Shown piece by piece: positions 1 to 20,993 of a stretch of 24,707 nucleotides of DNA; position 1 is the stretch's first letter; each line of letters starts with the position of its first letter. Position numbers and translations under genes: made by a program. Location: positions 1 to 24,707 of IMG/VR virus record IMGVR_UViG_3300048593_000286, one strand, 5' to 3'. Under the pieces are notes generated by a model, which saw nothing but the letters and a program-made list of their open reading frames with translations, was not told the DNA's origin and made no database searches. Source of the DNA: a virus.

Positions 1-460
1 TCTTCGCAAGGTTAAACACTCCTTCATAGGCTTTAACCATCTGAGGTGTAATCTCAGGATTGGCGGCGTAGTAGCGGTTGTAAAGGTCGTTAATAGAATC
101 TTCGATACGTTGCTGTGCTTTTAAAGATTGCTCGTAAGCGTTGACTTCAGCTTTCACCAAGTCAAATTCTTTCTGTACAGCTTTGTCAGTAGAACCGAGC
201 ATCATCACACGCTGCTCTATCGCGTCAACTTTGTTTTGCGCTTTGACGACAGAGTTCTGTGCATCGGTGACACCTTTCTGGAACTTCGCGTCAATCTTAG
301 GAATATCAGCAGTCTTCGCGCCAGCGAGTGAATCTGAGTATGCGATGTACTTGTCACGCTCTGCTCTCACGTTAGCGAAGCGTGCTTTGGCAGTGTTCAG
401 CTCATCAGGTGTGAACGCTTCTTTGTCGCGTCCTTTAGGTAGAGGGCAAGGGCTTAGCAT
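1..460 (-). CDS. Coiled-coil internal virion-type protein, partial (C-terminus beyond the left edge)
   Basis: This reading frame opens with ATG at 460-458 and runs open to the left edge (153 codons visible), so the protein continues outside the window. The start overlaps the stop of the upstream 1692-residue gene by 7 bases, and a GGAG lies about 13 bases before it. The visible part is charged and mostly helical by eye, rich in Lys, Glu, Ala and Gln (for example residues around KAQNKVDAIEQRVMML and VNAYEQSLKAQQRIED), with coiled-coil-like spacing. No catalytic motif or signal peptide is seen. Its place after the other core proteins suggests another large internal or ejected virion protein, but the family is not recognised. 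Confidence 0.75.
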   Translation of the reverse strand, partial: MLSPCPLPKGRDKEAFTPDELNTAKARFANVRAERDKYIAYSDSLAGAKTADIPKIDAKFQKGVTDAQNSVVKAQNKVDAIEQRVMMLGSTDKAVQKEFDLVKAEVNAYEQSLKAQQRIEDSINDLYNRYYAANPEITPQMVKAYEGVFNLAK

Positions 461-3400
461 GGTGTGTCAAATACTCCTTCTGGTGGTAAGTGGTCGTCAA
501 TTACATTTGAACGCGCGATACGCTCTAGACCTAGCTGTTCTAGGCTGTCTACGTTTTTCATGATGTAAGCTTTCTGTTGAGGTGTCGCTACTTCCCATAT
601 TTGCTGAAGCATCTTACTGCTCCATTTTTGTTCAGCAGGTGTAGAAACAGACAGTTCGCGCGACTTTAAAAACGGTATAAGGTCTTCGTCATAAACCTCG
701 CCGAACTCAGAGATGCTTCTTGAGAGAGGGTGTTCTTCCATGGAAGAAGCTGTACGACCATCAAAACCTTGTTCGCGCAACATCGCCACACGAAGCTGTT
801 CGATAGGTACTTGTGAGTTATTGACAACGTGGTAAGCGTCAGTAACGTCAGGCAATGTTGCTGTAGGTGTGTTCTTTCTAACTACTGGAACTATTTCTGC
901 AATTGTAAAGGTTCCACCTCCTACACCTCTCACCTTTACGTCAGTTATAGACTTCACAGAGTAACTGTCTGGTAATATTAAAACCTCAGTCTGTAGAGAG
1001 TTTGCTGACTCTGCTGTGGTCTTTAGACCGTTAGCACCTTCCAACTTAAGGATGATGTTACCGTTGGAGTATGTTGCAGCTTCCTTTAAATCGGTTGAGA
1101 AGCTCTGTATTGCTTTATCAGAAACAGTGTCACCTACCTTAGACACCGTACTACCAACATCTCCCAACCCTCTGTATAACACAGGATACTGCCTAGAGTT
1201 TTCAGAAAATGCGCGCAATAGTTCTGGAGGGTATGCAGACAAACCTTCTCCACCTCTAGCTTTTGTAGCCCATTCAAAAGCTTCTCCATTTACATACCTA
1301 AACAGTACACGTTCAAGTTCAGAACTGTAAGACAACTCAGCTTGAATGTATTGAAGCGGTGCAGGAGTTGTAGGAGGTGTTATCTTTGTTTGCACCCTCT
1401 CCAAACCAAGCTGTTCCAGACGAGTAGCAGAAATTTTACCAAGTATAATCTCTTTTTGGTCTGGTGTAGATTTGCGCCACAGGGCGTTAAAGATACTTTT
1501 AGCGATATCTTCCGCAGTCTTAAGCTCTACCTTCTGGAGTGATGTAGCGACACCTTCCACTGTTTTGTTGGATAGTTTGCCAATACCTCCTTTAACCATG
1601 CGCGACAGTGCAGGAGTGTTGAGTACGTCTAAGCCGAGGTCGTCTACAGCGTTTAACACTTCCTTGAGTGGTGTAATGAAGTCGCCGCGCACAGACCATT
1701 GAGACACCTCACCAAGAGTACCGATACCTTTAGCAGCGTCTTGTAAATCAGCAACAGTAGTGATTGCAGAATCTGTGACAACTACAGGTTTACTGGTCGG
1801 TACAGGAACAACACCATCAATGATATCAAGTTGTTCCAACAGTGCGGATTCATTCACCTCATCAACGATGTAAGCACGGACTCCATAAAAATTAGGGTCT
1901 ATTTCAGAAGCACGTTTAGCTGCGAGATACTCTAAGTTTCCACGAAGAACTTCAAAGTCAGTCTCGCTTTTACGTCTAAGTACAATAGGTCTAAGATTTT
2001 CACCACTATCTAGTAATTCATTTGCCAATGTATCTACAGCTTGTTTGCTGTAATTACCACCCCTGTATGTCGTAATGTTCTCTAAGTCTACAGAGAATGT
2101 TCTTTTGTTCTCTACTCTGTAGCCCTCATCCATAACAGACCTATAAGCAGGTTTGTTGTCACTGTTGCTAACCAGAGCAGCGTCACTAGACAGTTTACGA
2201 ACATCCTTTGCTGCTGCTTGCTGCTTCAAGAAAGCTCTTTCTGCTTCTGAGTTAGGTTTTACAACAACTGAACGGACACTGGTATAATTAGGGTCTAGCT
2301 CTGCTGCACGTTTAGCTGCCAAGTATAAAGTATTGTCACCAACCACTTCAAACTTTATAGGATTGACTTTACGCAGGATAAGCGTCTCTATATTATCACC
2401 TGCTGCTAGAAGTTTTAGAGCCAATGACTCAATTTTGCTAGAATCTAAAACTCCGTTCGTAGTGTCAGAAATCATGTCTAAATCTACTGAGTTGGTAGAA
2501 TTTATAACAGACGACCTGACTTTACTTCTGTCTACTCCTGCACCACTAGATGTAGGAACTTTCACCCAATTGTTTGGGTTTGTGCTGTCAACAGTAAATC
2601 CATTTTTCTTCGCTAGAGCAGCAGAGCTTTCATTGACTTCTTCAATAACTAATACTTTGTCAGGATACCTCTCCTCAGTACGTTTAATGATATCTGAGAA
2701 GATACCCTTCCCTCTTACGTCTTCAGACACAGAAATGTTAGCAAATGTGATTGCGTCTACTTTCTCGCCATTGACTAAGTAGTCTCCTTTACGAATGTAG
2801 GCGTTAATCAGTGGCTCAAAGTCAGAACCAGTTGCTCCTGTCCTGATATACTCAGGTCTTCTATTTGAGGTGTACCAATTGTCAAACTTAACCACCCACT
2901 CATCAAGTGCTGAGTCTCTTGCACTTGCTCTTTTGCTAGGTCTTACACCTCTTGTGACGCGACCTCCTGTTTTACCTTGGAATGCGAACTCCAGCTTCGG
3001 GATTGTAATCGGCTGCACTTCTAATCGTGGTACAACTAAAGGAGTGTCGCGCATCACCTCCAACTTGTCTTGTACGATAGCGCGAACTTCGTCTGGAGTA
3101 GCACCCTTCAATACTGCGATGTTGGGTGTAAGTTCACCAGTACGTCCGTACTCTGCAACTTCCTGTAAAATGCGGTTCTGGTAAACTGTTTGAGGTGTAG
3201 GTTTCTGCTCAACAACGGCGCGAAGTAGGTTCTGTACAACAGGTAGTTGAGGTGAGTCATTAAAGAGTGCAGTTACATTGTTGTACAACTGCACATCTGC
3301 TGGCTCAACTTTCGGTACATTTAGTTGAGACAATTTCACTGACGTTTCTGGACTCCAGAGAATATCTACTTGGTGACGCTTACCTCTAGTGAGCCTACCT

Positions 3401-5532
3401 CCTTCGTGCGTGAATCCTGCATACCCCGACTTCTGTAATTCTGGTTTAAAAGAATCTACGAACTTTGCGAAACCGTCCTCACCAGTCTCTACCTCTACTC
3501 TTTTGCTGAATCTACGCACTGCGTCAAACAACTCGGCTGTAGATGTAACAACTTTTCCACCAAGACCATAACTCTTACCACCGTTCAGTAACCTTTCAGC
3601 TTCTTTGTACAGAACACCAAGCCTACCAGAGTTTGGTGCATTAAGCCTTACACTCTCTCTTATTTGTGCAGGTATCACATCATCTAGATTAAAAAGCTTA
3701 TCATTAGATGAGTCTACTTGATATAAGTATCCTTCACCAGTACCTTCAGAAGCTCCCTTTTTCTGGTACGTCTCAGCTACTGACCTGTCTCGCGTAGTGT
3801 AAAAACCATTACCGTAGATGTTGTCTTTATTAAAGAAATCATTCTTTAACTCAGTTACTGGAGAAGAAGAACCGTGGTAACGTATTACAGGCGGTGAGTA
3901 CGGTTCGCGCGGTACAGGGAACACCACCTCAGATGGTTCGTAACGTACTAGCGAGTCATATGAACCTGCAAGTTGTGGCTCTGCTCTTTTCTCTACTACT
4001 TGAAATGATGTCCTGTCTTGCGGTATAGTGGCATCACTCACACCTCCAAGTTGAGGTGTTTCTTGTACTGGACGTTCGGTTACTTGGAAGGAAGTCCTAT
4101 CACTTTGCGCAACAGTGCGACCAACTGTAGTTTGAGAAGTTGTAACGTCTTGAGTTACGGTACTTTCAGGCAAGTACACTCTGGAAGGTGCTTCGCGAGT
4201 AGGTGTGACTAACACCCTTTCAGGTGTAGGTGTTTTTGGAGTAATAGGAGAATCTACAACACTCGGTACGTCAATTGTACGCGGCGCTTCTGGTAGAACA
4301 CCTACAACACTAGATGGAGGCAGTTCGCGCACAGGGGGCAGCACCTCTGGAGTGATAGGAGGAGGTGCAACGGTGTTGCGTCTAAATCTGTTGAAAGCTT
4401 TTCCTACTTCAAAGTTTAAAGGGTCTGCACCCAAATCGAATAGAAATGCGCCACCTACTTGTAGCAAGTTCTTATCATCTCTTACAGCAGCAAAAGGGTT
4501 GAATGGTTTTCCTTTTTCGCCAGTGACAGCTAGAGATTGAAACTGCTCACCGTGCCAAGCAGCACCCGTGAAAGTGCCTCCTCTAGTTGGGCGCATTTCT
4601 TCGTAAGCTTTCTTAATTGCTTCTACATCAAATCCACCACTTATCAAAGCAGCAGCAGGTCTAATTACTATGTCAGCAGTTACACCTCTGACCAAGTTTG
4701 CAGGTAAAGCAAGAACACCGAACAATGTCTCCAGACTACCTCTGTCGTCACCTAAAAATGGTAAAAACGACTGGTTAAAAGCACGTTGAGTAGAGTAAAA
4801 ACCTGTACGGTCTTTCATCTTCTGACGTATCTGGTCGGCACTCAAGCCAGTAAAGTCTTCTGTCTCTATTACGCGCTGTCCAGTTACGTTAGTAAACCCT
4901 CCATTGTCAACGTCACGCTCACCAAACCCAACATACTGTGCGCCTTTATCACGCAAAGACTGAATATAGTCTAGGTACTCTCCTTTAGAGATACCTGCTG
5001 CTAACGCTGCTCTTGCGTTAGGGTTTGAGAAAGCATTACGCATACCGTTAGGTAGCACAGGTGGCTCGAACGCTAGACGCTCTGCTGCGTTGCGCGGCTC
5101 TCGACTACTCTTAAACGGGTTGTTTTGTGAAGTAAGTTTAGGGTCTATCTGGATAGGGTTAGAGCTTCCAAGAAGTTGCTTTTGCACCTCATTCGGTTTA
5201 GGTTGTCCAGACTCAGCCAATATTTTCTGAATTTCTTGCGCTGATTGTGCAGACAGACGCGACACTGTTTCACCATATGAGAGTGCTGTGTCTCCAGTTG
5301 GTGTCGGAGGCACTTCCAACAATGAAGATGTCGTAGGTTGAATCTGCGGCTGCTCTGGAATAGGTGATGCTTGAGTAGGTGCAGATGGAAATGCTGAAGC
5401 AGGTATAGTTGGAGTAGGTGGTGACGCAGGGTCTTGTACACCAGCAGGAGGTGTAAACGCTGGAGCGATATTAACCTTTAATGGAGGTGTTGTATTGAGT
5501 GCTTCTTGGTACTCTTTAATTACGTTAGACAT
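454..5532 (-). CDS. Giant polyvalent virion protein with two ADP-ribosyltransferase-like, one GNAT and two ParB-like domains
   Basis: 1692 residues. The ATG shares one base with the upstream stop (TAATG), showing translational coupling to the 959-residue core protein. Residues 1-100 are Pro/Thr-rich, and a hydrophobic stretch lies near 265-295. Residues 475-520 hold a tandem repeat built on RTSFQV. Residues about 551-730 look like an ADP-ribosyltransferase of the phage polyvalent type (RYHGSS with H553, then GNGFYTT with Y578). Residues 878-995 look like a GNAT N-acetyltransferase (RGKGIF at 940-945, then a Gly-Phe-containing motif). Residues 1016-1092 and 1148-1222 are two related ParB/sulfiredoxin-like domains (EVVGDNTLYLAAKRA; EVLRGNLEYLAAKRA). 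Residues 1440-1535 are a second, R-S-E-type transferase (R1454, SFST at 1477-1480, QTE at 1514-1516). A motif ending LEQLGLER occurs near 1350-1381 and 1645-1675. Its position after the core hydrolase suggests ejection into the host. Domain calls are by eye; substrates are unknown. Confidence 0.85.
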   Translation of the reverse strand: MSNVIKEYQEALNTTPPLKVNIAPAFTPPAGVQDPASPPTPTIPASAFPSAPTQASPIPEQPQIQPTTSSLLEVPPTPTGDTALSYGETVSRLSAQSAQEIQKILAESGQPKPNEVQKQLLGSSNPIQIDPKLTSQNNPFKSSREPRNAAERLAFEPPVLPNGMRNAFSNPNARAALAAGISKGEYLDYIQSLRDKGAQYVGFGERDVDNGGFTNVTGQRVIETEDFTGLSADQIRQKMKDRTGFYSTQRAFNQSFLPFLGDDRGSLETLFGVLALPANLVRGVTADIVIRPAAALISGGFDVEAIKKAYEEMRPTRGGTFTGAAWHGEQFQSLAVTGEKGKPFNPFAAVRDDKNLLQVGGAFLFDLGADPLNFEVGKAFNRFRRNTVAPPPITPEVLPPVRELPPSSVVGVLPEAPRTIDVPSVVDSPITPKTPTPERVLVTPTREAPSRVYLPESTVTQDVTTSQTTVGRTVAQSDRTSFQVTERPVQETPQLGGVSDATIPQDRTSFQVVEKRAEPQLAGSYDSLVRYEPSEVVFPVPREPYSPPVIRYHGSSSPVTELKNDFFNKDNIYGNGFYTTRDRSVAETYQKKGASEGTGEGYLYQVDSSNDKLFNLDDVIPAQIRESVRLNAPNSGRLGVLYKEAERLLNGGKSYGLGGKVVTSTAELFDAVRRFSKRVEVETGEDGFAKFVDSFKPELQKSGYAGFTHEGGRLTRGKRHQVDILWSPETSVKLSQLNVPKVEPADVQLYNNVTALFNDSPQLPVVQNLLRAVVEQKPTPQTVYQNRILQEVAEYGRTGELTPNIAVLKGATPDEVRAIVQDKLEVMRDTPLVVPRLEVQPITIPKLEFAFQGKTGGRVTRGVRPSKRASARDSALDEWVVKFDNWYTSNRRPEYIRTGATGSDFEPLINAYIRKGDYLVNGEKVDAITFANISVSEDVRGKGIFSDIIKRTEERYPDKVLVIEEVNESSAALAKKNGFTVDSTNPNNWVKVPTSSGAGVDRSKVRSSVINSTNSVDLDMISDTTNGVLDSSKIESLALKLLAAGDNIETLILRKVNPIKFEVVGDNTLYLAAKRAAELDPNYTSVRSVVVKPNSEAERAFLKQQAAAKDVRKLSSDAALVSNSDNKPAYRSVMDEGYRVENKRTFSVDLENITTYRGGNYSKQAVDTLANELLDSGENLRPIVLRRKSETDFEVLRGNLEYLAAKRASEIDPNFYGVRAYIVDEVNESALLEQLDIIDGVVPVPTSKPVVVTDSAITTVADLQDAAKGIGTLGEVSQWSVRGDFITPLKEVLNAVDDLGLDVLNTPALSRMVKGGIGKLSNKTVEGVATSLQKVELKTAEDIAKSIFNALWRKSTPDQKEIILGKISATRLEQLGLERVQTKITPPTTPAPLQYIQAELSYSSELERVLFRYVNGEAFEWATKARGGEGLSAYPPELLRAFSENSRQYPVLYRGLGDVGSTVSKVGDTVSDKAIQSFSTDLKEAATYSNGNIILKLEGANGLKTTAESANSLQTEVLILPDSYSVKSITDVKVRGVGGGTFTIAEIVPVVRKNTPTATLPDVTDAYHVVNNSQVPIEQLRVAMLREQGFDGRTASSMEEHPLSRSISEFGEVYDEDLIPFLKSRELSVSTPAEQKWSSKMLQQIWEVATPQQKAYIMKNVDSLEQLGLERIARSNVIDDHLPPEGVFDTPC

Positions 5533-8411
5533 TATGGAGCCTCATGTGGTAATATACCCATACCTGCTCTCTGTAATGCTTGGCACATCGCGCAAGAAGC
5601 TCGGTATGAAGTGTGAACTGGTCTAATTTTGTCATCATAAGAAGTTTGGTATTTTCTACCTGCGTGTTCTCCGACACGTTTGACATACTCCGCAAAAGTG
5701 ATGTTTTTATCTCTTACGTTCCTTACAGATTGTGGGTCGCGCACATAACTTTGAATATGCTCTACACCTCCCCATATTCCCATAATGATGGCTTCTGGTT
5801 TGTCATACTTTAAACCGTATGTATCTCTACGCATCTTTAAGAACTTCTCAACATACTTAAGTTGCTCAGTGTTAGTCATCTGCCTTAACTCATATTTGGT
5901 AGTGCCAACGTCTTTTGCAGCTTCATCACCGAACTGTATAAGTCCAGTGTAACCATCACTGTTTGTAACAGAAGCAGCAAAAGTACCTCCAGTTTCAAAC
6001 GCCATTGCATCTGCTAACCACTGAGCAGGTGTACCAAGAGATTTTGCTACTCGGTGCAACTCTTTACGAAACGGAGCATTTTGCGCCAACTCTTGATAAC
6101 CGTAGTTCTTTTCAGGTGACGACACATACTTTGACTTGTCTGCTGGCAGTGGTATGTCGCGTATAGGGTTACGATTGTTGTATGGAGGTGTTGCCGCAGA
6201 GCCGTTTGTGTAGTAAATTTTACCGTCTAGTAAATAAGCACCACTCAACGGTACTGCGTTAGGAGGCACTCCTTCTGGAGTGTTTGCTCCTGAACGGGCG
6301 CGGAGTCCTCTGTTTGCATTGTTGATGTTCTTCACACTCCAAGCAATAGGGTCTTCTGTAGCTTCTACACCACCGTACATGTCGTTGCGTACTTCCATGT
6401 GTAGGTGCGCTCCAGTAGAACTACCAGTATTTCCAGTTGCGCCTAATACTTGCCCTGCTAGCACTTGTTGACCTTCACGTACATTAATCGTATTAAGATG
6501 TGCATAACGGACATATTTACCGTCAGGTGTGCGGACATCGATAAATTTGCCGTACCCTTCGTTACCGTCATCTCTCACTGTAGCAATTACACCTCCAATA
6601 GGAGATATGAGTGGAGTGTTCTCTGGTACAGCGATGTCGATACCAGCGTGTTGTCGGTTGCCGCGCCATTCTCTGTAATCACCAGAATATGTTACTTGCG
6701 TACCTGCTTTGAAAGGAAGTGGAAACTTGACATCCCCAACCTGCAATTCGGCAAGTTGGGGCATATTAAAATTTTGGTTTTCTCCTCTCATAGTAGATTG
6801 GTTGCGTTGCTCTCTAATTGTCTTTATGTTTTGTGTTGTTTCTCTGAAGCGTGTGAGCGCAACTTCTATCTTGCTTGGGTCTTTTAGCAATTCATCTAGT
6901 GGTTGCCAAATGGTGTTCACTCTCTTCATTTCTTGCTGTATAAACTTAACCCTGTCGTTGACAGCATCAAGCGCAATTTTGTTAAACTTCTCTACTTCCT
7001 GCTGTGCCTTCTGTACTTCTGCTGGAGTACCTTGAGCAAGTGCTTTAGTGTAGTTTTTTACAGCTTCTTGTAACTCTTGTGCAACACTTACATTAAGTGA
7101 CAACATAGGAAGCTTGAAAGCATCTTGCACCCAACTCAAACGTTCTTTAGCGTCACTCTTACCGAGTCCAGCGATAGTACTTGCGAGTGCTCTGCTTTCA
7201 CCTTCAAGAGTAGCTAGTTTATTTTTGTCCTTGTCATAATTATCAGCAGCTTCTACAACAGCCTTCAATGCTGGAATATTTTCCCAATCTGCTTTAAGTG
7301 CGGCTCTGGTGTTACCATCAGATTTAAGATAAATAGCAGTCATCGATTGGTTGTAGTCTGCTGAAATTCTAAATGCTTTAAGAGCGTCAATCGTACCCTC
7401 TTTCGCAGCATTGTCCAACTCACGCTGATTTCGCGCCAGTTCAGCATCGGCTCGTCTTCGTGCAGCAGGGTCAAGTATATCAGCATACGCTTTAGCTATT
7501 TGAGGAGGGAGTATTGCTAATCTAGCAAGTCTAAGAGTGTTCTTCTGCTCTGCTGGCATATCTTCAGTTTGTTGAATAAGAAGATTAGTGTCGTTAATAA
7601 CGCGGACTGCACCCATCAACTCACCTCTTATTTTCGCACCAGCAGCAGATGATTTACCTATAGCTGTGACAACGCCGTTAATAAACACAGCTTTATCAGC
7701 GCCGTCTAGTTTAGAGTTTACTAACGTGTCTGTTAAAACTTTGTAAACGTTGTCTACTCTGGTCTGAGCTTTAGTAGAATCTGTCTCGTTTGACAAGTCA
7801 GCTAGTTGGGTGTCTACTGTTATAATTTGCTGAGTTATAAGAGTCTGCACGTTTGTGTCGCGTATCTTCTTACCTTCTTCTCTAAGGCGTGTAATGTCTT
7901 GCTCTTGGTACTGTTGTATAGGAGAGTACATCCGTAAAGATTGTGTTTGCAGAACACCTCCATCTACTTTGTCTTTATAGAGAGTGTTAAGCTCTTCAAT
8001 TTTTCTCTGGTAGCCAATACTACCTTCGTTAGTTTTATTGATGTAGTCAGGTGCGCTTGCAGCTAACCTGTTTGCTGCAATGATATACTCTTTCTCAGCT
8101 TTCGCCATCTCTTCTTTCTTGCGCTCTTTAGCGAGTTTCTCTTGCTGCTCTGTATACTTTACAGCAACTTCGCCAAGACCAGCAAGAGCGCCAACAAGAC
8201 CGCCGCCTTCTTTTGGTTGCACCACTACCTTACGTCCAGCAGCTTCAGCATCAGCGTTAGAAGCGGTGCTGTTAATTCTTTGCACCTCTCCGATAGACTG
8301 TCTAATACTGTTAGCAGAAGCGTCAGCAAGCTTAGGTAAGTCTAGAAGCTTACCGTCTTGCATACTACTGTCGAGAGGTTTAGTTTGATAATCAGAGCCT
8401 ATAAATTCCAT
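5532..8411 (-). CDS. Internal virion protein with M23 peptidase and lytic-transglycosylase-like domains
   Basis: 959 residues. The N-terminal half (about 1-560) is long, charged and helical, typical of podovirus core proteins. Residues about 565-690 form an M23 (LytM/lysostaphin-like) zinc peptidase; all expected ligand motifs are present: HxxxD (H588, D592) and HxH (H669, H671). Residues about 790-935 resemble a goose-lysozyme/soluble-transglycosylase fold, with a candidate catalytic E806 in AFETGGTF followed by GYTGLIQF. Together these would cut peptide cross-links and glycan strands of peptidoglycan during DNA injection. T7 carries a transglycosylase in an internal core protein (gp16), and this protein occupies the equivalent place. 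It lies between a gp14-like protein and the giant polyvalent protein, with which it shares a TAATG junction. A CAMC pair sits near the C-terminus. Functional assignment is fairly secure; exact core position is inferred. Confidence 0.88.
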   Translation of the reverse strand: MEFIGSDYQTKPLDSSMQDGKLLDLPKLADASANSIRQSIGEVQRINSTASNADAEAAGRKVVVQPKEGGGLVGALAGLGEVAVKYTEQQEKLAKERKKEEMAKAEKEYIIAANRLAASAPDYINKTNEGSIGYQRKIEELNTLYKDKVDGGVLQTQSLRMYSPIQQYQEQDITRLREEGKKIRDTNVQTLITQQIITVDTQLADLSNETDSTKAQTRVDNVYKVLTDTLVNSKLDGADKAVFINGVVTAIGKSSAAGAKIRGELMGAVRVINDTNLLIQQTEDMPAEQKNTLRLARLAILPPQIAKAYADILDPAARRRADAELARNQRELDNAAKEGTIDALKAFRISADYNQSMTAIYLKSDGNTRAALKADWENIPALKAVVEAADNYDKDKNKLATLEGESRALASTIAGLGKSDAKERLSWVQDAFKLPMLSLNVSVAQELQEAVKNYTKALAQGTPAEVQKAQQEVEKFNKIALDAVNDRVKFIQQEMKRVNTIWQPLDELLKDPSKIEVALTRFRETTQNIKTIREQRNQSTMRGENQNFNMPQLAELQVGDVKFPLPFKAGTQVTYSGDYREWRGNRQHAGIDIAVPENTPLISPIGGVIATVRDDGNEGYGKFIDVRTPDGKYVRYAHLNTINVREGQQVLAGQVLGATGNTGSSTGAHLHMEVRNDMYGGVEATEDPIAWSVKNINNANRGLRARSGANTPEGVPPNAVPLSGAYLLDGKIYYTNGSAATPPYNNRNPIRDIPLPADKSKYVSSPEKNYGYQELAQNAPFRKELHRVAKSLGTPAQWLADAMAFETGGTFAASVTNSDGYTGLIQFGDEAAKDVGTTKYELRQMTNTEQLKYVEKFLKMRRDTYGLKYDKPEAIIMGIWGGVEHIQSYVRDPQSVRNVRDKNITFAEYVKRVGEHAGRKYQTSYDDKIRPVHTSYRASCAMCQALQRAGMGILPHEAP

Positions 8412-8414
8412 AAT

Positions 8415-9476
8415 TTAACCAAAGTAATCTTGTCTTCCTCTGTAGTTGATGTCGTACCGCGAGTCAGACACACGCGGAGCTTGCGGCAGTTGAGGTGTTT
8501 GCTGCTGCTGCGACTGCTCCTGAAAAGCGTTAAATAAACTTACACCTGCACTAGCAAATGCTGGTAGAGAGTCAAACAACGAGTAACTTCTGTTATTGCG
8601 CGATACATCAACGTTCTTTGCAGAAGTGGCACTCCTTATGTTACCTTCTTGTGCGCTAGAGATGTTTTCGCCAGCGAGAAGCTTACGGTAAGCACCTAAC
8701 TGGTCTATCTTTGAAGCGTTGGCGGTCATCTCTTGATTTACACCAAACATGGAGTCGTTAGCTGCGAAAGAGTTCTGTTGCATCGCGTCAGTCGCGTTAA
8801 GAGCATTTTTTGCCGAAGCAAGCTGATAACCTGCTGCAACATCACCAGTCTCTTTTGTCACATCAGCGAACTGTTCAATAAGGTCGCCGTACTGCTGCGC
8901 GTAATCTACTTGTACACGTTGGTCTCCTTCTGCATTACGGAGGGTGTCGTATTGAGAAAGGAGCGCACTCTCTTCACCTGTACGGTATAAGTCTGCCATA
9001 CGCGGGTTGAGTGCTGCGTATATAGCTGCTCGTTGTGTTAAAACATTTTGCGCCAACTTGTCATAAGGTACGTTTTGAGTGTCTATACCTCTTGCCTTAG
9101 CAGCTTGCGCTAGCATATTTTCTTGTTGGTTTTCTCTACCGACTTGAGCTTTGCTGCTGTTAACATCGAGTGCAGAGTTGGCGGTGTTAATTTGAGCGCT
9201 TTGTATTGCGCGTTGAGTGCGGTTGTCTAGTCGTGCGATATCAGCGCTGGTGAGTGCTGCTGCGAGAGCCGCCACTCTTTGTTGTGATGACACCTCAAAA
9301 TCAAGAAAGTTAGACTGACGTTGTGCTTCCACATCCATCAGTCTAATACTCTCTTCGCGGCGATTGGCTTCTATCTGCATTGCGTTAGCAGCATTTTGTG
9401 AAGCTGCTGCATTAGCGCTAGTAATTGCACCACCTACAGCAGATATTACACCTACTACTGGTGCGATGAATCCCAT
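8415..9476 (-). CDS. Internal virion protein, gp14-like
   Basis: 353 residues. It starts with a hydrophobic Gly/Ala/Val stretch (PVVGVISAVGGAITSANAAA) followed by Ala/Gln-rich helical sequence containing NAMQIEANRREESIRL, the composition usual for the smallest core protein of T7-like virions (gp14), which forms a channel in the outer membrane during ejection. The C-terminus is Gln-rich. A ribosome binding site (AGGGAG, 8 bases from ATG) lies inside the end of the upstream gene, and only one base separates that stop from this ATG. It precedes the peptidoglycan-hydrolase core protein, matching T7 gene order. The assignment rests on position and composition, since family identity is weak at sequence level. 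Confidence 0.7.
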   Translation of the reverse strand: MGFIAPVVGVISAVGGAITSANAAASQNAANAMQIEANRREESIRLMDVEAQRQSNFLDFEVSSQQRVAALAAALTSADIARLDNRTQRAIQSAQINTANSALDVNSSKAQVGRENQQENMLAQAAKARGIDTQNVPYDKLAQNVLTQRAAIYAALNPRMADLYRTGEESALLSQYDTLRNAEGDQRVQVDYAQQYGDLIEQFADVTKETGDVAAGYQLASAKNALNATDAMQQNSFAANDSMFGVNQEMTANASKIDQLGAYRKLLAGENISSAQEGNIRSATSAKNVDVSRNNRSYSLFDSLPAFASAGVSLFNAFQEQSQQQQTPQLPQAPRVSDSRYDINYRGRQDYFG

Positions 9477-9477
9477 A

Positions 9478-9957
9478 TTATGTACTCCCTGATAAGTATC
9501 TCTTACCTTTTAATCTAGTCTCAACATCAACGGCGGTCAGTGAGAAGTAACCTTCAGACCTGTTCCAGACACACACTTGATGGGTGTATCCGATACCTTG
9601 TAACTGCTCTTTAAAAACGTAATAACTGTCTGTCGAGTCTTCGACATACGACACCACATCCTCTGCCGTCACTTGGTTGTATTGGTGCTGGAGAAGTATG
9701 GTGATGTTTACGTCAAGTTGTGTTTTTAACTTACCTAGCAAGTCTGAGTAGTCTTGCGTAAGTAAGTTGACATCAGAGGCGATGAACTTCTTGTTGTCGC
9801 TACGGTCTACAACAACGTAAACATATTTAATTGCTTTAAGGCGCTGCAATTGCATAACACCTTGCTGCGCCGCATCTTCCACATCTAGTGGTGTAATGTA
9901 CCAAGAAGGGTACACATACCCTACTACTGCGATACTGTCTGTCGGAACTGTGTACAT
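9478..9957 (-). CDS. Hypothetical protein between tail tube B and the core proteins
   Basis: 159 residues; not recognised. The ATG follows directly on the stop codon of tail tube B (TAAATG), with GGAG just upstream, so it is translated within the late operon. The protein is a mix of strand- and helix-like segments with many Tyr, Val and Asp residues (IKYVYVVVDRSDNKKFIASD near the middle). There is no signal peptide, membrane segment or clear catalytic motif. The size and position would suit a small tail or core assembly factor, but nothing in the sequence proves this. Confidence 0.7.
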   Translation of the reverse strand: MYTVPTDSIAVVGYVYPSWYITPLDVEDAAQQGVMQLQRLKAIKYVYVVVDRSDNKKFIASDVNLLTQDYSDLLGKLKTQLDVNITILLQHQYNQVTAEDVVSYVEDSTDSYYVFKEQLQGIGYTHQVCVWNRSEGYFSLTAVDVETRLKGKRYLSGST

Positions 9958-12900
9958 TTATACTCCACAAGCGTATTTGTTGCCGCAATTATCTGGTGAA
10001 CCAGTTATCACAATGTCAGTTAATTCATAAGTCCAACTAGCTGGATTGAATACAGGTGGAACACCATTATCATATAATGTTCTTGTGTGAGTTACGTTAG
10101 CAAAAACGATTGTCGCTGTAAAATAGTATGTACCTGATACTGAAGTTACAACTACACCTATACTGCTGATAGCGCCAACACCCGATGTGGATATGTATGT
10201 CTCTGTAATAAGTGTACCTGCACCATTTCTTATCTTTCCAAGTGCTGTAACTGTGTAAGAAGTACCAACACACTGACCGCCAGTAAATAGAAGAGTTCGA
10301 GCCGCTTCACATTCAGCTTGTGACACATAACTACCGTCAGGGTTTAGCGAACACACCCCATCAGAGCATGACCACATACTTGGGAACTGTAGCGGATTTC
10401 CATTTGCGTACACAGGATTCCCGTCTGAGTCTACTGCACCCTCATATGGAGTCGTGTCACTGTCTGTTATGTCGCTGTAAGGCAGCAACTCACAGAAGTT
10501 ATTCAAAGGCACTACTCCAAAAGACACGTTGTTAAGTGTCTGAATAACGCTGTCCTCGTACAACACAGCACCATTAAATGACCCTGCTACTTTGTAGAAG
10601 AAAGTCAACTGCTTCCCATCTACAACACCACTAATGCTTATCTCTTCGCTATTGAGTTTAGTCCAGTTGTTTGTAAGAACACCATCATATAATATAGTTA
10701 CATCAAGTTCACCGAGAACAGGTGACATAACTAGTGGAGAAGTGTAACGAGTAACACCCGTGTAGGTAGGTATGTTTTGGGCGCATGGTTGTACATCTAC
10801 TGTTTGACCTGCTGTGAATTTCTTAGCAAAGTCAATATACAACTCGTACTCTGTGCGCGTAATCTGGAAATCACACAACGTCTTGCAGCACAGCAGCATA
10901 AACTCTCGCCAGAACAAGAACGATGAAATGTCCCAAGGTAGTACAGCTTTGTATTCACTCCACACCTTCTGGTCTGTGAAGTACACCATCAATCTTTGAT
11001 TGTAGACGTACAGCTTGTTATTGAAGGTGTCGTATGAAAGCTTTGAGTCAGCGCCAAACTCTTTGATAACATTGCGTATAGGTAACGAAATCTCACTAGC
11101 GCGGTACTCATTAGAGGTTACGATACCTAGGTCAAACACCCCATTCTCAGATAAAAAGAATAGGGTACTCTCTGTTGTTTCTACACCATCTCTGCCGATA
11201 CACCCTACACTGGCAGTTAGTGTGAGTGTTGGAGTGTTGACGTTAAACTGTCCATTAGTGTCTAACGTGGTTTTATATGTGCTGGTGCGTGTGAACACAA
11301 ACAGAAATTGCTGCCACTGTCGCATTGCGAGAACAGTGTCAGACTGAGAGAACGGCACTCTAATTTTGAACGGGTCTATTGTAGGATTATTTAAGTCGTC
11401 TGTTGTTTGGAAGTACCTGTAAGGTGCGCCATCTACAATTTTGTCATAAACACCGCTAACCAGTAGAGTAGCACCAACACCTGCAAGGCATAAGCGCGAC
11501 TGGTAGAGCGCACCGAAAGTCGGAAATATTCCTTCATCGTAATTAGCGTAATCACCAAAACCGTAAGCTGGGACATAAGACCCGTTATCGTAATTGTACT
11601 TTGTATTAAGCGCAGCAGAGCCGCACCACTTACGTTCAGTATTTACTAGAGTAACGTACTCGTCCTTTTTAACGCCTATTGGAGTGCTTGCAGTGAACGA
11701 CACAAACTTCTGTACTGTTGAAGTCCCTGTGTAGGGTGTAAGAGATTCTGTTTCGTGAGTGTAGTATTTTTGTGTACCAGACACAGTAGTTATGGTGCTT
11801 CTTGCAACTGCTGTTTCACCGACAAACACATTTAAGTTAGCGTTAAGAACACCCTTCTTATTGTTAAAACGAAGTTGGCGCAACCTTACGAATGATACCG
11901 AATCGTATGCAACTCTTTCTATAGTTGTTGTAAGACCGTCCGCGATTACTGAGTGAACACCTCCATCTAGATACAGAAAGATGTCGCCAGCCAGACCAGT
12001 ATAGTTGGCTACAGCAGTAGTTAAAGCAGAATCGGTGTACAACTTAATGATGTTAGCAGTCAACACCAACACATAATAAACCGTTGTTGCGTTTAACGTT
12101 GCTGGTAAAGTACCGTTGGTTGTTTTAACTCTTACAGCGTCACCAGTAAACAACTTGTGTTGCGCGATAGTTAAAAGGTTGGTGTTAGAGACAGCTTGAT
12201 GGTCAAAGAACAACTCAGACCTATAGACAAAAATAACTTTCTTGCGCAGATTTTGGTCGTAATACACCTCAAATGCATTAGCTGATAACGACTTCGCGTA
12301 ATACGTTGTCGTTTCGAGTAAACCTACTAGAAGGGTGTTTGTTGTAATAAAACGTATTGGTTGTGCGTTTGTAAAACCGTGTGCAGTTATCGCGATGAAG
12401 TTATCGGTGTAATCTACAGCCAAATCGGTAAACGTTTTTGTGTTGCGTGCACCAATTGTTGCTATCGTTGTTAACGCTGCATCTGTGTACAACTCGATAA
12501 CATCTTCGTTAATCTCTTTCGCGTAATAGGCAGCAGAGTCAGACAAGCTTACAGGAACAGCACCTTCAGTGTTGGACAAATTGACAATGTCATAACTCTT
12601 AAGTTTGTGCTTTAAGATTTTTATCTGGTTGCCAGACACATCTTTGTCTGTGAATGTGCGGATGTTCGAGTTTGTTATGTCACCAAACGTCACAAAGAAC
12701 TTTGACGGGCTAGTGTAGGTGTTCGCAGAAGGTGTGTAATTCGCACCATCAGAGAAAGAATACTCTACCGAAATCTGCGGTTGATTGTTAGATTTGTAAG
12801 TGTAAATATTTCCAAATGCATCATTAATAAATGCAAATACACCGTAACGGGTGCTGTCTGGTATTTCATCTGTTACAATTGAATTAGGGATTTGAACGTG

Positions 12901-13572
12901 TTTGTCTTCGTCAGAGACACCAAACCTAGAGACGCGCTGGTAAAAGTTGTCACCAAACCAGATAAGAGATTCCGCCCACCATTGCCAAGAGAAGGTGCAA
13001 ACGTAAACAGTTGCGCCGATGGTGATACTAGCTGATGTGATAGTGAGGTTTCCAGCAGAATAACCAAGTGTTCGTGCAACACGTACACCGTTTACATACA
13101 CCACACAATCTGTGTAGGTGTTAACCCAAGTTGTGCCAACGGCTATTACTATTGAACCTGCGGTAATTGCGACAGAAGATGCTTCTTCAAACCTCACTTG
13201 GACAGGTGCTTGTTTTTCGCACAACAGAAGATTGAAGTTGTCATCCAGTGGTATGCTGAATGGTAACGATGATGCACTCTTGAATACATTATCTTTCTCC
13301 CACAACTTTGTCATTACATCGTTCTGTAAATCAAACACCCTTAATTTAGTGTTAAACTTTGAGATTATAAACTCATACCCTAGTGTGGTTACGAACCTAC
13401 TGACAAACACTGGATTGGGTGTAACCGCGTCTTTAAACAGTGTAAGTGTTCCGTTACGCTTGCGGACACTTCCGCCAATGTCAAAATCTACATTTAGTAA
13501 AGAAGGTGAGTCATCTTTAGGGAGTGCCAACTCTCCGCTTACAGTGTTTAATCCTCCGAACTTTGTCTTCAC
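9958..13572 (-). CDS. Tail tubular protein B (gp12-like), enlarged
   Basis: 1204 residues, against roughly 800 in T7 gp12. It starts at GTG, with GTGA overlapping the stop of tail tube A. The N-terminus (KFGGLNTVSGELALPKDDSP, then a GGSVRKRNG segment) is the classical opening of podovirus tail nozzle proteins. Three related repeats of about 60-70 residues lie near 310-370, 391-450 and 463-525; each has a Gly/Lys-His-like turn, a YYAK or YYVL strand and an LYTD/VYYD strand, suggesting tandem beta domains inserted in the nozzle. The C-terminal region from about residue 1066 is Cys-containing (WSCSDGVCSLNPDGSYVSQ, then AECEAA) and ends with NCGNKYACGV, possibly disulphide-stabilised surface decoration. 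It forms the lower tail with tail tube A. Confidence 0.88.
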   Translation of the reverse strand: MKTKFGGLNTVSGELALPKDDSPSLLNVDFDIGGSVRKRNGTLTLFKDAVTPNPVFVSRFVTTLGYEFIISKFNTKLRVFDLQNDVMTKLWEKDNVFKSASSLPFSIPLDDNFNLLLCEKQAPVQVRFEEASSVAITAGSIVIAVGTTWVNTYTDCVVYVNGVRVARTLGYSAGNLTITSASITIGATVYVCTFSWQWWAESLIWFGDNFYQRVSRFGVSDEDKHVQIPNSIVTDEIPDSTRYGVFAFINDAFGNIYTYKSNNQPQISVEYSFSDGANYTPSANTYTSPSKFFVTFGDITNSNIRTFTDKDVSGNQIKILKHKLKSYDIVNLSNTEGAVPVSLSDSAAYYAKEINEDVIELYTDAALTTIATIGARNTKTFTDLAVDYTDNFIAITAHGFTNAQPIRFITTNTLLVGLLETTTYYAKSLSANAFEVYYDQNLRKKVIFVYRSELFFDHQAVSNTNLLTIAQHKLFTGDAVRVKTTNGTLPATLNATTVYYVLVLTANIIKLYTDSALTTAVANYTGLAGDIFLYLDGGVHSVIADGLTTTIERVAYDSVSFVRLRQLRFNNKKGVLNANLNVFVGETAVARSTITTVSGTQKYYTHETESLTPYTGTSTVQKFVSFTASTPIGVKKDEYVTLVNTERKWCGSAALNTKYNYDNGSYVPAYGFGDYANYDEGIFPTFGALYQSRLCLAGVGATLLVSGVYDKIVDGAPYRYFQTTDDLNNPTIDPFKIRVPFSQSDTVLAMRQWQQFLFVFTRTSTYKTTLDTNGQFNVNTPTLTLTASVGCIGRDGVETTESTLFFLSENGVFDLGIVTSNEYRASEISLPIRNVIKEFGADSKLSYDTFNNKLYVYNQRLMVYFTDQKVWSEYKAVLPWDISSFLFWREFMLLCCKTLCDFQITRTEYELYIDFAKKFTAGQTVDVQPCAQNIPTYTGVTRYTSPLVMSPVLGELDVTILYDGVLTNNWTKLNSEEISISGVVDGKQLTFFYKVAGSFNGAVLYEDSVIQTLNNVSFGVVPLNNFCELLPYSDITDSDTTPYEGAVDSDGNPVYANGNPLQFPSMWSCSDGVCSLNPDGSYVSQAECEAARTLLFTGGQCVGTSYTVTALGKIRNGAGTLITETYISTSGVGAISSIGVVVTSVSGTYYFTATIVFANVTHTRTLYDNGVPPVFNPASWTYELTDIVITGSPDNCGNKYACGV

Positions 13573-19700: not shown

Positions 19701-20993
19701 TTAATTTAAAAGAGAACTAACAATCCGCCCAGCCAAATTATAGTAGCCAGCAATAGATAAATGGCTTTTATCTGTGCCAGACAGATACCAATTTTGAGAT
19801 GTCATCTCCGAGGCGTTTGTCAATTCTGTAATATCTACCACGCTCATCCGAGGATTGTTTGAAACATAATCCTTGGATGCATTCCTGTAGTTTATTAATT
19901 TAGAATCATCAGGAGTACTCACTGGATGAGATGGGACGACTAACCAAAATAATTGCTCAATAGCCCACCCTTGAGAAAGCCAAACTGCCTCAAATCGAGT
20001 TACTAAAGCATCCAAGTTGTCCGCAAAAGCTGAAGCGCTGCTCCCATCACTAATAGCTTTACTACCTACACTTGCAAGCACCTCATTGCGGTCGTTCAAA
20101 CCACTACTGACCCAGATTACAACAATAGGAACTAAACCTTGAGCTTCTTGCAGTCTTCTTGCTTCTTTGAAGCAAGTAATGATAGTGGCATCTGGGGTTG
20201 ATTGAAATCCCGCAGCCATACCTCTTAAAGATTGCCCCCCTACTCCATGCATAGTGTGGACACTACAGCCACTTGACCTATTATTGATTTCAATGCGATT
20301 ATACAAAGCAAAAACAGCGCCAGTAGAAGTAGCTTGATTTGGTAGCCACCATCTGCAAGATGTATTTCGATTTATAGTGCTAGTCTCTCTTCCTGACGGA
20401 ATATCAATCACCCCATAAGCTAATGAATCAGAAGCTCCTACACAAGAAAAGCTCGCAATAGCGCCTAAATTATAATATGGTGGTTCCTCACTCCTAAACT
20501 GAGCGCCATTAATAGCCCCGCCATTTGTAGCAAACACCCCAAAGCAGTAATGCCCCTTAAATGCGCCATTGATATCCCATCGACCATTTTTGTCCAAGAC
20601 GATACCATTACTACTGATAAATGCGTTTACTTCAGAGTGGGGGATGTACGCATACTGCTGAATACCCATAGGCAAAGCCCAACTATCTGCAAAAAAGCTA
20701 GGCGCACCTGTTATTTGTCCATTGATGTTATTGTTGCCGCCATTCAAAGAGCTATAAAAATAGCCCTGTCCAGTACCGTTCCCATTGTTATTGTTCGCGC
20801 TTATCCATCCCGTAGCGTACAAACCAAATTGATTTGAGAGCGCATCTTGAAAACCCTCATCCCATCCGTGTCCCCCTAAAAGTTGATTGCTATCACCAAT
20901 CATTAAAAAATCAATACGCCTATAAGCAGCTTGTTTTACAGCCCATTTTGTTGTTTGCTGCTCACTATCCCTCAATAATCTTCTAGCGAACAT
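19701..20993 (-). CDS. Tail-associated SGNH/GDSL-type hydrolase
   Basis: 430 residues. Block I is FLMIGDSNQLLGG, with the nucleophile S35; a block II-like glycine lies in GVGGQSLRG; block III is SSGLNDRNE with the expected Asn; block V is TDKSHLS with D408 and H411. This gives a complete SGNH esterase catalytic set. Such domains in tail proteins remove acetyl groups from surface polysaccharide, or otherwise cut host envelope carbohydrate, during adsorption. The N-terminal portion includes a Gly/Asn-rich insertion (SANNNNGNGTG). The ATG overlaps the stop of the upstream 193-residue gene (TAATG). No signal peptide is seen, as expected for a virion protein. The sequence is poorer in GC-rich words than its neighbours, which hints at exchange of this host-range module. 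Confidence 0.82.
   Translation of the reverse strand: MFARRLLRDSEQQTTKWAVKQAAYRRIDFLMIGDSNQLLGGHGWDEGFQDALSNQFGLYATGWISANNNNGNGTGQGYFYSSLNGGNNNINGQITGAPSFFADSWALPMGIQQYAYIPHSEVNAFISSNGIVLDKNGRWDINGAFKGHYCFGVFATNGGAINGAQFRSEEPPYYNLGAIASFSCVGASDSLAYGVIDIPSGRETSTINRNTSCRWWLPNQATSTGAVFALYNRIEINNRSSGCSVHTMHGVGGQSLRGMAAGFQSTPDATIITCFKEARRLQEAQGLVPIVVIWVSSGLNDRNEVLASVGSKAISDGSSASAFADNLDALVTRFEAVWLSQGWAIEQLFWLVVPSHPVSTPDDSKLINYRNASKDYVSNNPRMSVVDITELTNASEMTSQNWYLSGTDKSHLSIAGYYNLAGRIVSSLLN

Follow-up and report, generated by a model that had tools for sequence, protein, structure and literature searches.

Exchangeable enzyme-like cassettes at fixed slots in a giant predicted ejection protein of a cyanopodovirus

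A 24,707-nt stretch of viral DNA (IMG/VR record IMGVR_UViG_3300048593_000286, positions 1 to 24,707; the whole stretch is hereafter called the window) encodes a giant protein of 1692 residues next to a peptidoglycan-hydrolysing core protein. This giant protein is made of a conserved scaffold, in which enzyme-like domains of several kinds (two classes of ADP-ribosyltransferase (ART), a GNAT acetyltransferase and a pair of ParB-like domains) are optional cassettes at fixed slots. The 'package' of domains varies among near-identical phages and some relatives have none. We consider it likely that the protein is a virion-internal component of a pre-ejectosome, and that its interchangeable cassettes reach the host cytoplasm and act before the phage genes are expressed.

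Scaffold, slots and cassette exchange

The whole giant protein gave no match when used as a query against the PDB and phage sequences, and its relatives were reached via the neighbouring M23 protein. Seven complete members of the window's clade were aligned, comprising the window and six relatives (L001, L003, L005, L019, L020 and L021). In this alignment the conserved scaffold comprises residues 1-545, 741-850, 1246-1398 and 1561-1692, and the remainder falls into four slots, A to D. The parts of the window protein are as follows.

454..5532, minus strand: open reading frame (ORF) of the giant predicted ejection protein, 1692 amino acids (aa), without internal stop; syntenic with A-4L ORF27, which is PDB 9k3a chain B
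3898..5532, minus strand: N-terminal scaffold, residues 1-545, with a Pro-rich start; kept in 7/7 complete clade members
3313..3897, minus strand: slot A, H-Y ART, residues 546-740, with H553 and Y578
2983..3312, minus strand: conserved helical spacer, residues 741-850
2521..2982, minus strand: slot B, GNAT acetyltransferase domain, residues 851-1004, with RGKG at 940-943
2203..2502, minus strand: slot C, ParB-like domain 1, residues 1011-1110, with the motif GDNTLYLAA
1798..2103, minus strand: slot C, ParB-like domain 2, residues 1144-1245
1339..1797, minus strand: conserved helical scaffold, residues 1246-1398
853..1338, minus strand: slot D, R-S-QxE ART, residues 1399-1560
454..852, minus strand: C-terminal scaffold tail, residues 1561-1692 and stop, which repeats the 1335-1380 motif
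457..459, minus strand: C1692, the sole Cys of the giant protein and its final residue

The content of the slots differs from one member to the next. Slot A holds an H-Y ART in the window and L001 and is empty in L003, L005, L019, L020 and L021. The GNAT domain of slot B is present only in the window, L001 and a further relative, L002, the slot being otherwise empty. Slot C contains the two ParB-like domains in the window, L003, L005 and L019, a second H-Y ART in place of this pair in L001 and L002, and nothing in L020 and L021. At slot D, the window has the R-S-QxE ART and L005 an H-Y ART, and the slot is empty in L001, L003 and L019-L021. The proteins of L020 (924 aa) and L021 (949 aa) are thus intact with all four slots empty. 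Over 13.86 kb the L001 contig shares 98.7% identity with the window, and the two diverge exactly at slots C and D. On either side of the slot C cassette of L001 (L001:10910-11600) lies a copy of a 20-nt direct repeat, GTACCAACTAGTAAACCTGT, in linkers that read KPVPTSKPV, an arrangement consistent with recombination in the linkers.

The same modularity is found in cultured phages. The Wumptreviruses Pf-WMP3, Cyanophage PP and Lbo-JY12 are ~97% identical in the giant gene, with a variable site that follows Pf-WMP3 residue 1173 and immediately precedes the H-Y ART. Pf-WMP3 carries nothing at this site, PP has ~217 additional residues that include a ParB-like stretch (family hidden Markov model, 2.3e-8; no Pfam match) and Lbo-JY12 has ~232 that include an R-S-E ART (PF01129 2.5e-4 and PF03496 3.2e-4, just below cut-off). 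These three phages, with Leptolyngbya / Phormidium hosts, form a natural allelic series for testing injected effectors before viral gene expression. Another phage, Lbo240-yong1, is 75% identical to Pf-WMP4 as far as residue 887, beyond which its C-terminal half differs. This half (L053:4081-5604) is unlike Pf-WMP4 and has no Pfam match; it is possibly a further cassette.

Assignment of the domains

An earlier note on this DNA had proposed five enzyme-like domains in the giant protein, namely two distinct ART-like domains, a GNAT and two ParB-like domains. This proposal is supported by Pfam, by homologues in relatives and, for the H-Y ART and the GNAT, by Foldseek, and the residues it named (H553, Y578, R940-G-K-G943, R1454, S1477-T1480 and Q1514-x-E1516) all occupy those positions. 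Structure prediction, which the note had suggested as a check, recovered an ART fold in a model of residues 541-750 and a GNAT fold in a partly low-confidence model of residues 546-1010.

In the H-Y ART of slot A, H553 lies within YHG and Y578 within GFYTT. The domain matches the Pfam families DUF3990 (7.1e-6) and ART-PolyVal (0.023), and in L001, with ART cassettes in slots A and C, the DUF3990 match reaches 3.9e-12, above the curated cut-off. An AlphaFold2 (AF2) model from 8 alignment rows gave low confidence for this domain; using 14 family rows raised it to a pLDDT of 78.7 and a pTM of 0.75. The top Foldseek match of the latter model was 9k3a_B, 'Cyanophage A4 pre-ejectosome with C1 symmetry' (E 4.7e-6, TMq 0.58), followed by structures of the diphtheria toxin catalytic domain, PARP2, RES and ParT, and in the viral library the named top matches were mostly ART-PolyVal proteins, PfWMP3_26 included. 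The strand-1 His and strand-2 Tyr of ART-PolyVal / DUF3990 (the Tox-ART-HYD2 clade) are present in the predicted fold. Both residues are retained in most of 15 diverse sequences, and H-Y ART motifs occur in most family members, A-4L included.

The ART of slot D has the R-S-E motifs in order: R1454 (in YRG), S1477-F-S-T1480 and Q1514-x-E1516. A homologue of this domain in Pf-WMP4 matches PF03496 (2.3e-11) and PF01129 (5.5e-10), and the motif residues of the two proteins align, QxE in the window corresponding to ExE in Pf-WMP4. Judged by sequence, the assignment of a second ART is secure through this homologue, and the R-S-E motifs are retained in three divergent copies (window, Pf-WMP4 and Lbo-JY12). 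The two ParB-like domains are likewise secure by homology, via the match of L003 to PF02195 (4.1e-11, in two stretches, compared with 2.9e-5 in the window), and each copy matches the family profile of the other at 1e-21 to 1e-28. By sequence the GNAT is weak (Acetyltransf_7 0.0027 in the window). With the 546-1010 model, the first 23 PDB matches in Foldseek without exception belonged to the GNAT family of acetyltransferases (best E 2.1e-3, prob 1.00); many of these are tRNA-acetylating toxins, from which a substrate should not be inferred. Scans of viral contigs with the GNAT and with the R-S-E ART returned only close relatives that were already known.

Virion location and cysteine content

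The position of the giant gene points to the ejection proteins. Upstream of it in the window are genes for TerL, portal, scaffold, capsid, tail A and tail B, a gp14-like protein and the M23/transglycosylase-like protein. The order TerL, portal, scaffold, major capsid protein, tail A, tail B, gp14-like, M23, giant protein, 'fibre' is common to the window, Pf-WMP4, Pf-WMP3, TR020 and A-4L. The giant protein follows the gp14/gp15-like genes, which is the position of T7 gp16. By the M23 protein, the closest cultured relatives are Saffermanviridae cyanophages; the phage belongs with the Saffermanviridae (cyanopodoviruses) and, because these nearest relatives are cyanophages, its host is probably a cyanobacterium.

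In A-4L, the giant protein (ORF27) is chain B and the product of the next gene (ORF26, L010:18483-21827) is chain A of PDB 9k3a; PDB 9k2v contains the M23 and gp14-like proteins. The A4 structure 9k3a is reportedly that of Hou et al. in PNAS, 2025 (e2423403122). A-4L ORF27 has no Pfam match to ART and has YHG and GSGTY motifs in the correct order. Since 9k3a_B was the first Foldseek match of the window ART model, ahead of known ARTs, an ART fold sits within a solved ejection machine. By analogy with these relatives, the giant protein of the window phage would also be ejected. The neighbours of the giant gene in this core are as follows.

5532..8411, minus strand: M23 endopeptidase / transglycosylase-like core protein (M23 1.5e-24, phrog_21656 1.9e-107)
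5583..5594, minus strand: CxxC of the M23 protein, residues 940-943
8415..9476, minus strand: gp14-like internal virion protein, Cys-free; the A-4L protein at the same position is in PDB 9k2v (10 chains)
2..460, minus strand: next gene, with only its start in the window, including Cys5; full length 1324 aa in L001 (L001:12410-16384)

The earlier note had placed the giant protein directly after a peptidoglycan-hydrolysing core protein, which the M23 and phrog_21656 matches confirm, and at a T7-like ejection-protein position, which agrees with the A4 equivalent being a pre-ejectosome chain with an ART fold and with the cysteine signature described below. In relatives, the next gene bears the annotation 'tail fiber; host specificity'. 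Its product is probably an ejection protein misnamed as a tail fiber, because the A-4L product is 9k3a chain A, its only Cys is the invariant Cys5 and conservation extends over most of the protein. We rejected 'ParB-like partition nuclease', a name taken from the records, for the giant protein as a whole, the ParB-like part being one optional cassette. Elsewhere in the window, the tail B protein is split into ORFs at 9478-9957 (159 aa) and 9958-13572 (1204 aa); the former matches the last 160 positions of phrog_21185 and the adjoining 1204-aa ORF its main part. Near the terminase, a 430-aa ORF at 19701-20993 begins with a GDS-type motif, FLMIGDSNQ, and is possibly an SGNH-like hydrolase.

Known ejection proteins of podoviruses are nearly devoid of cysteine. 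With T7, P22, SP6, P-SSP7, phiKMV and N4 as references (loci L044-L049), the ejection proteins of the first five contain 2 Cys in 10,755 aa, vs 96 in 12,465 aa of their other structural and packaging proteins, and the two exceptions are Cys2 of T7 gp14 and of its P-SSP7 counterpart. N4 gp50/51/52 have 0 Cys in 4,294 aa. Taken together with the L001 copy of the next protein, the gp14-like, M23 and giant proteins of the window have 4 Cys in 4,328 aa, all of them terminal, vs 35 in 2,907 aa (Fisher p 1.4e-10). The gp14-like protein has no Cys in the four phages counted. The M23 protein has only two, in a C-terminal H-CxxC-H motif that looks like a metal site; of 22 relatives, 21 have the CxxC, TR020 being the one without it. 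The giant protein has one Cys in its 1692 residues; every complete homologue has one in its last three residues, and L037 carries an additional Cys close to its start. In the next protein, Cys5 is invariant across 13 aligned sequences. The cassettes themselves, taken as 18 stretches totalling 3,440 residues, contain no Cys. We infer that the depletion results from selection, since these proteins would have to unfold, travel through the tail and traverse the envelope.

Two accounts of the remaining cysteines were considered. That the terminal Cys is forced by an overlapping ATG of the next gene was rejected, as the offset between the genes ranges from -22 to +343 and the Cys persists. A single four-Cys metal site shared by three proteins was weakened as an idea, since the CxxC of the M23 protein is flanked by conserved His, could bind a metal alone and is absent in TR020. 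Cys-free composition, sometimes with one terminal Cys, offers a simple sequence signature for finding ejected proteins. In the partial set of literature searched, no account of Cys-free ejection proteins was found, and two papers on ejection proteins make no reference to Cys; the rule may nevertheless have been reported before.

Proposed role, alternatives and known systems

In the mechanism we propose, the conserved scaffold would assemble in the capsid with the gp14-like protein, the M23 protein and the product of the next gene, and on infection this set would exit through the tail and build a conduit for the DNA. Pro-rich linkers and fixed insertion sites would hold the interchangeable cassettes, which would enter the host cytoplasm along with the DNA. 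There, ahead of any phage gene expression, they would use NAD or acetyl-CoA to modify proteins or nucleic acids of the host. Such activities could benefit the phage in host takeover or counter-defence. Recombination within the conserved flanking sequences would account for the gain, loss and exchange of cassettes. The idea in the earlier note of a multi-target takeover package is upheld as regards five domains in one protein at the gp16 position; it has to be modified in that the domains are optional, and some relatives carry none.

A number of observations weigh against this proposal. The position of the strand-5 Asp, the third H-Y-D residue, is S, N or K in the window's clade, with an E nearby (other family members mostly have D/N), and H or Y is lost in two distant relatives; because this Asp position is not conserved in the clade, we file the window domain as ART-PolyVal-like by its predicted fold and not as a proven active member. 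The acetyl-CoA loop of the GNAT is incomplete (RGKGIF vs RGKGxG/A; general motif R/Q-x-x-G-x-G/A), the GxRR arginines of the ParB/sulfiredoxin nucleotide pocket are absent in both ParB-like copies (GDNTLYLAA and RGNLEYLAA), and the R-S-QxE domain of the window scores 0.0083 to PF01129, below the Pfam cut-off. As some catalytic or ligand positions are not fully conserved, some cassettes may be inactive, and catalytic activity and host targets are at present predictions for all of them. Profile-profile comparison of the scaffold ends with other family members, A-4L included, gave no significant match, and the evidence for the virion location therefore comes from synteny, from the ART fold common to both proteins and from the Cys pattern. 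T4 Alt, an ejected ART, has 3 Cys in 682 residues, so the Cys signature is not universal for ejected enzymes.

The divergence at the third ART residue and the ParB arginines would also be expected if the ART, GNAT and ParB folds were inactive structural modules, providing bulk that shapes the internal core, and in A4 the chain bearing the ART fold forms an ordered part of the pre-ejectosome. However, the H and Y have been retained in most of the 15 diverse sequences and the R-S-E motifs in three divergent copies, and near-identical phages lack or exchange entire cassettes, which are therefore not needed to build the core; we regard purely structural modules as improbable. Record names ('tail protein' and 'tail fiber protein' for the giant protein and its neighbour) suggest instead a tail or tail-fibre protein with enzyme domains that act outside the cell. 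Such a role is very improbable, given that the A-4L protein at the same position is a pre-ejectosome chain, that ART and GNAT need NAD and acetyl-CoA, which are both cytoplasmic, and that Cys-free composition fits ejection proteins but not tails. The window is an IMG/VR record. Its clade is represented mostly by metagenomic contigs, which raises the question of whether the cassette differences are assembly chimeras. We give this next to no credence: the L001 layout recurs in L002, from a different metagenome, the slot D of the window recurs in L004, the reading frames are intact with breakpoints at the same linkers in seven sequences, and cultured isolates behave alike.

The reading of the giant protein as an ejected carrier of enzyme cassettes can be extended, much more tentatively. 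The Saffermanviridae ejection core might be a general cargo platform for any Cys-free enzyme of ~160-240 aa, which would occupy a slot and be delivered before genes are expressed, with the lone terminal Cys residues (at the end of the giant protein and at residue 5 of the next protein) coupling the two chains, by a disulfide or a shared metal, for ordered assembly or threading, and with cassette turnover tracking host defence. We hold this combination to be speculative.

The known proteins that come closest are the polyvalent proteins, for which H-Y-D ARTs, GNATs beside ARTs, ParB domains and predicted carriage in the virion have been described (Iyer et al. 2017, PMC5512222). As in these, the giant protein combines several unrelated effector-type domains (H-Y ART, GNAT, ParB/sulfiredoxin) in one long, late-virion-gene protein predicted to be injected; it has at least two unrelated conflict-type domains in a single chain and is encoded among late virion genes. 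An HExxH metallopeptidase, which is frequent but not required in polyvalent proteins, was not found in it. It differs from them in having both ART classes in one chain, in being a protein type general in one cyanophage family, and in carrying its cassettes in fixed slots of an ejection scaffold. With the A4 (A-4L) giant protein, 9k3a chain B, it shares gene position and neighbours, the H-Y ART fold and the single C-terminal Cys, although the A4 scaffold is not alignable, no GNAT or R-S-E ART was found in A4 and the ParB-like match there is only weak.

More distant parallels exist in other phages. T4 Alt is a virion-borne ART that is injected together with the DNA (record note; PMC5512222). Unlike the R-S-QxE ART of the window, which is one cassette of a multidomain protein, Alt is a solo myovirus enzyme of the R-S-E class only, forms no part of an ejection core and contains three Cys. 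T7 gp16 and related podovirus ejection proteins resemble the giant protein in late-operon position, size and near absence of Cys, but gp16 carries a peptidoglycan hydrolase and no ART, GNAT or ParB cargo; for gp16-type proteins, domain swapping has been described for the hydrolase (PMC8954989). The N4 virion RNA polymerase, gp50, is likewise a giant enzyme ejected with the DNA by a podovirus, without Cys in 3,500 aa, but it is a polymerase and not a set of exchangeable cassettes.

Since polyvalent proteins have been published and a homologue is listed as 'mono-ADP-ribosyltransferase-like protein' in one phage record, this kind of protein is already known. A survey that came after that of Iyer et al. 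recorded ARTs in just 3% of siphoviruses and podoviruses (PMC9503650). What looks new is slot exchange in a podovirus ejection protein, the presence of two ART classes in one chain and the near-general occurrence in one cyanophage family. Also apparently new are the occurrence of an ART fold in a pre-ejectosome of solved structure and the Cys rule with its conserved terminal Cys. An ART fold is thereby placed inside a virion ejection machine with a public structure (9k3a), with such cargo exchanged at fixed sites between near-identical phages, and two published statements are qualified, namely that polyvalent proteins are few in cyanobacteria and that R-S-E ARTs are absent from polyvalent proteins.

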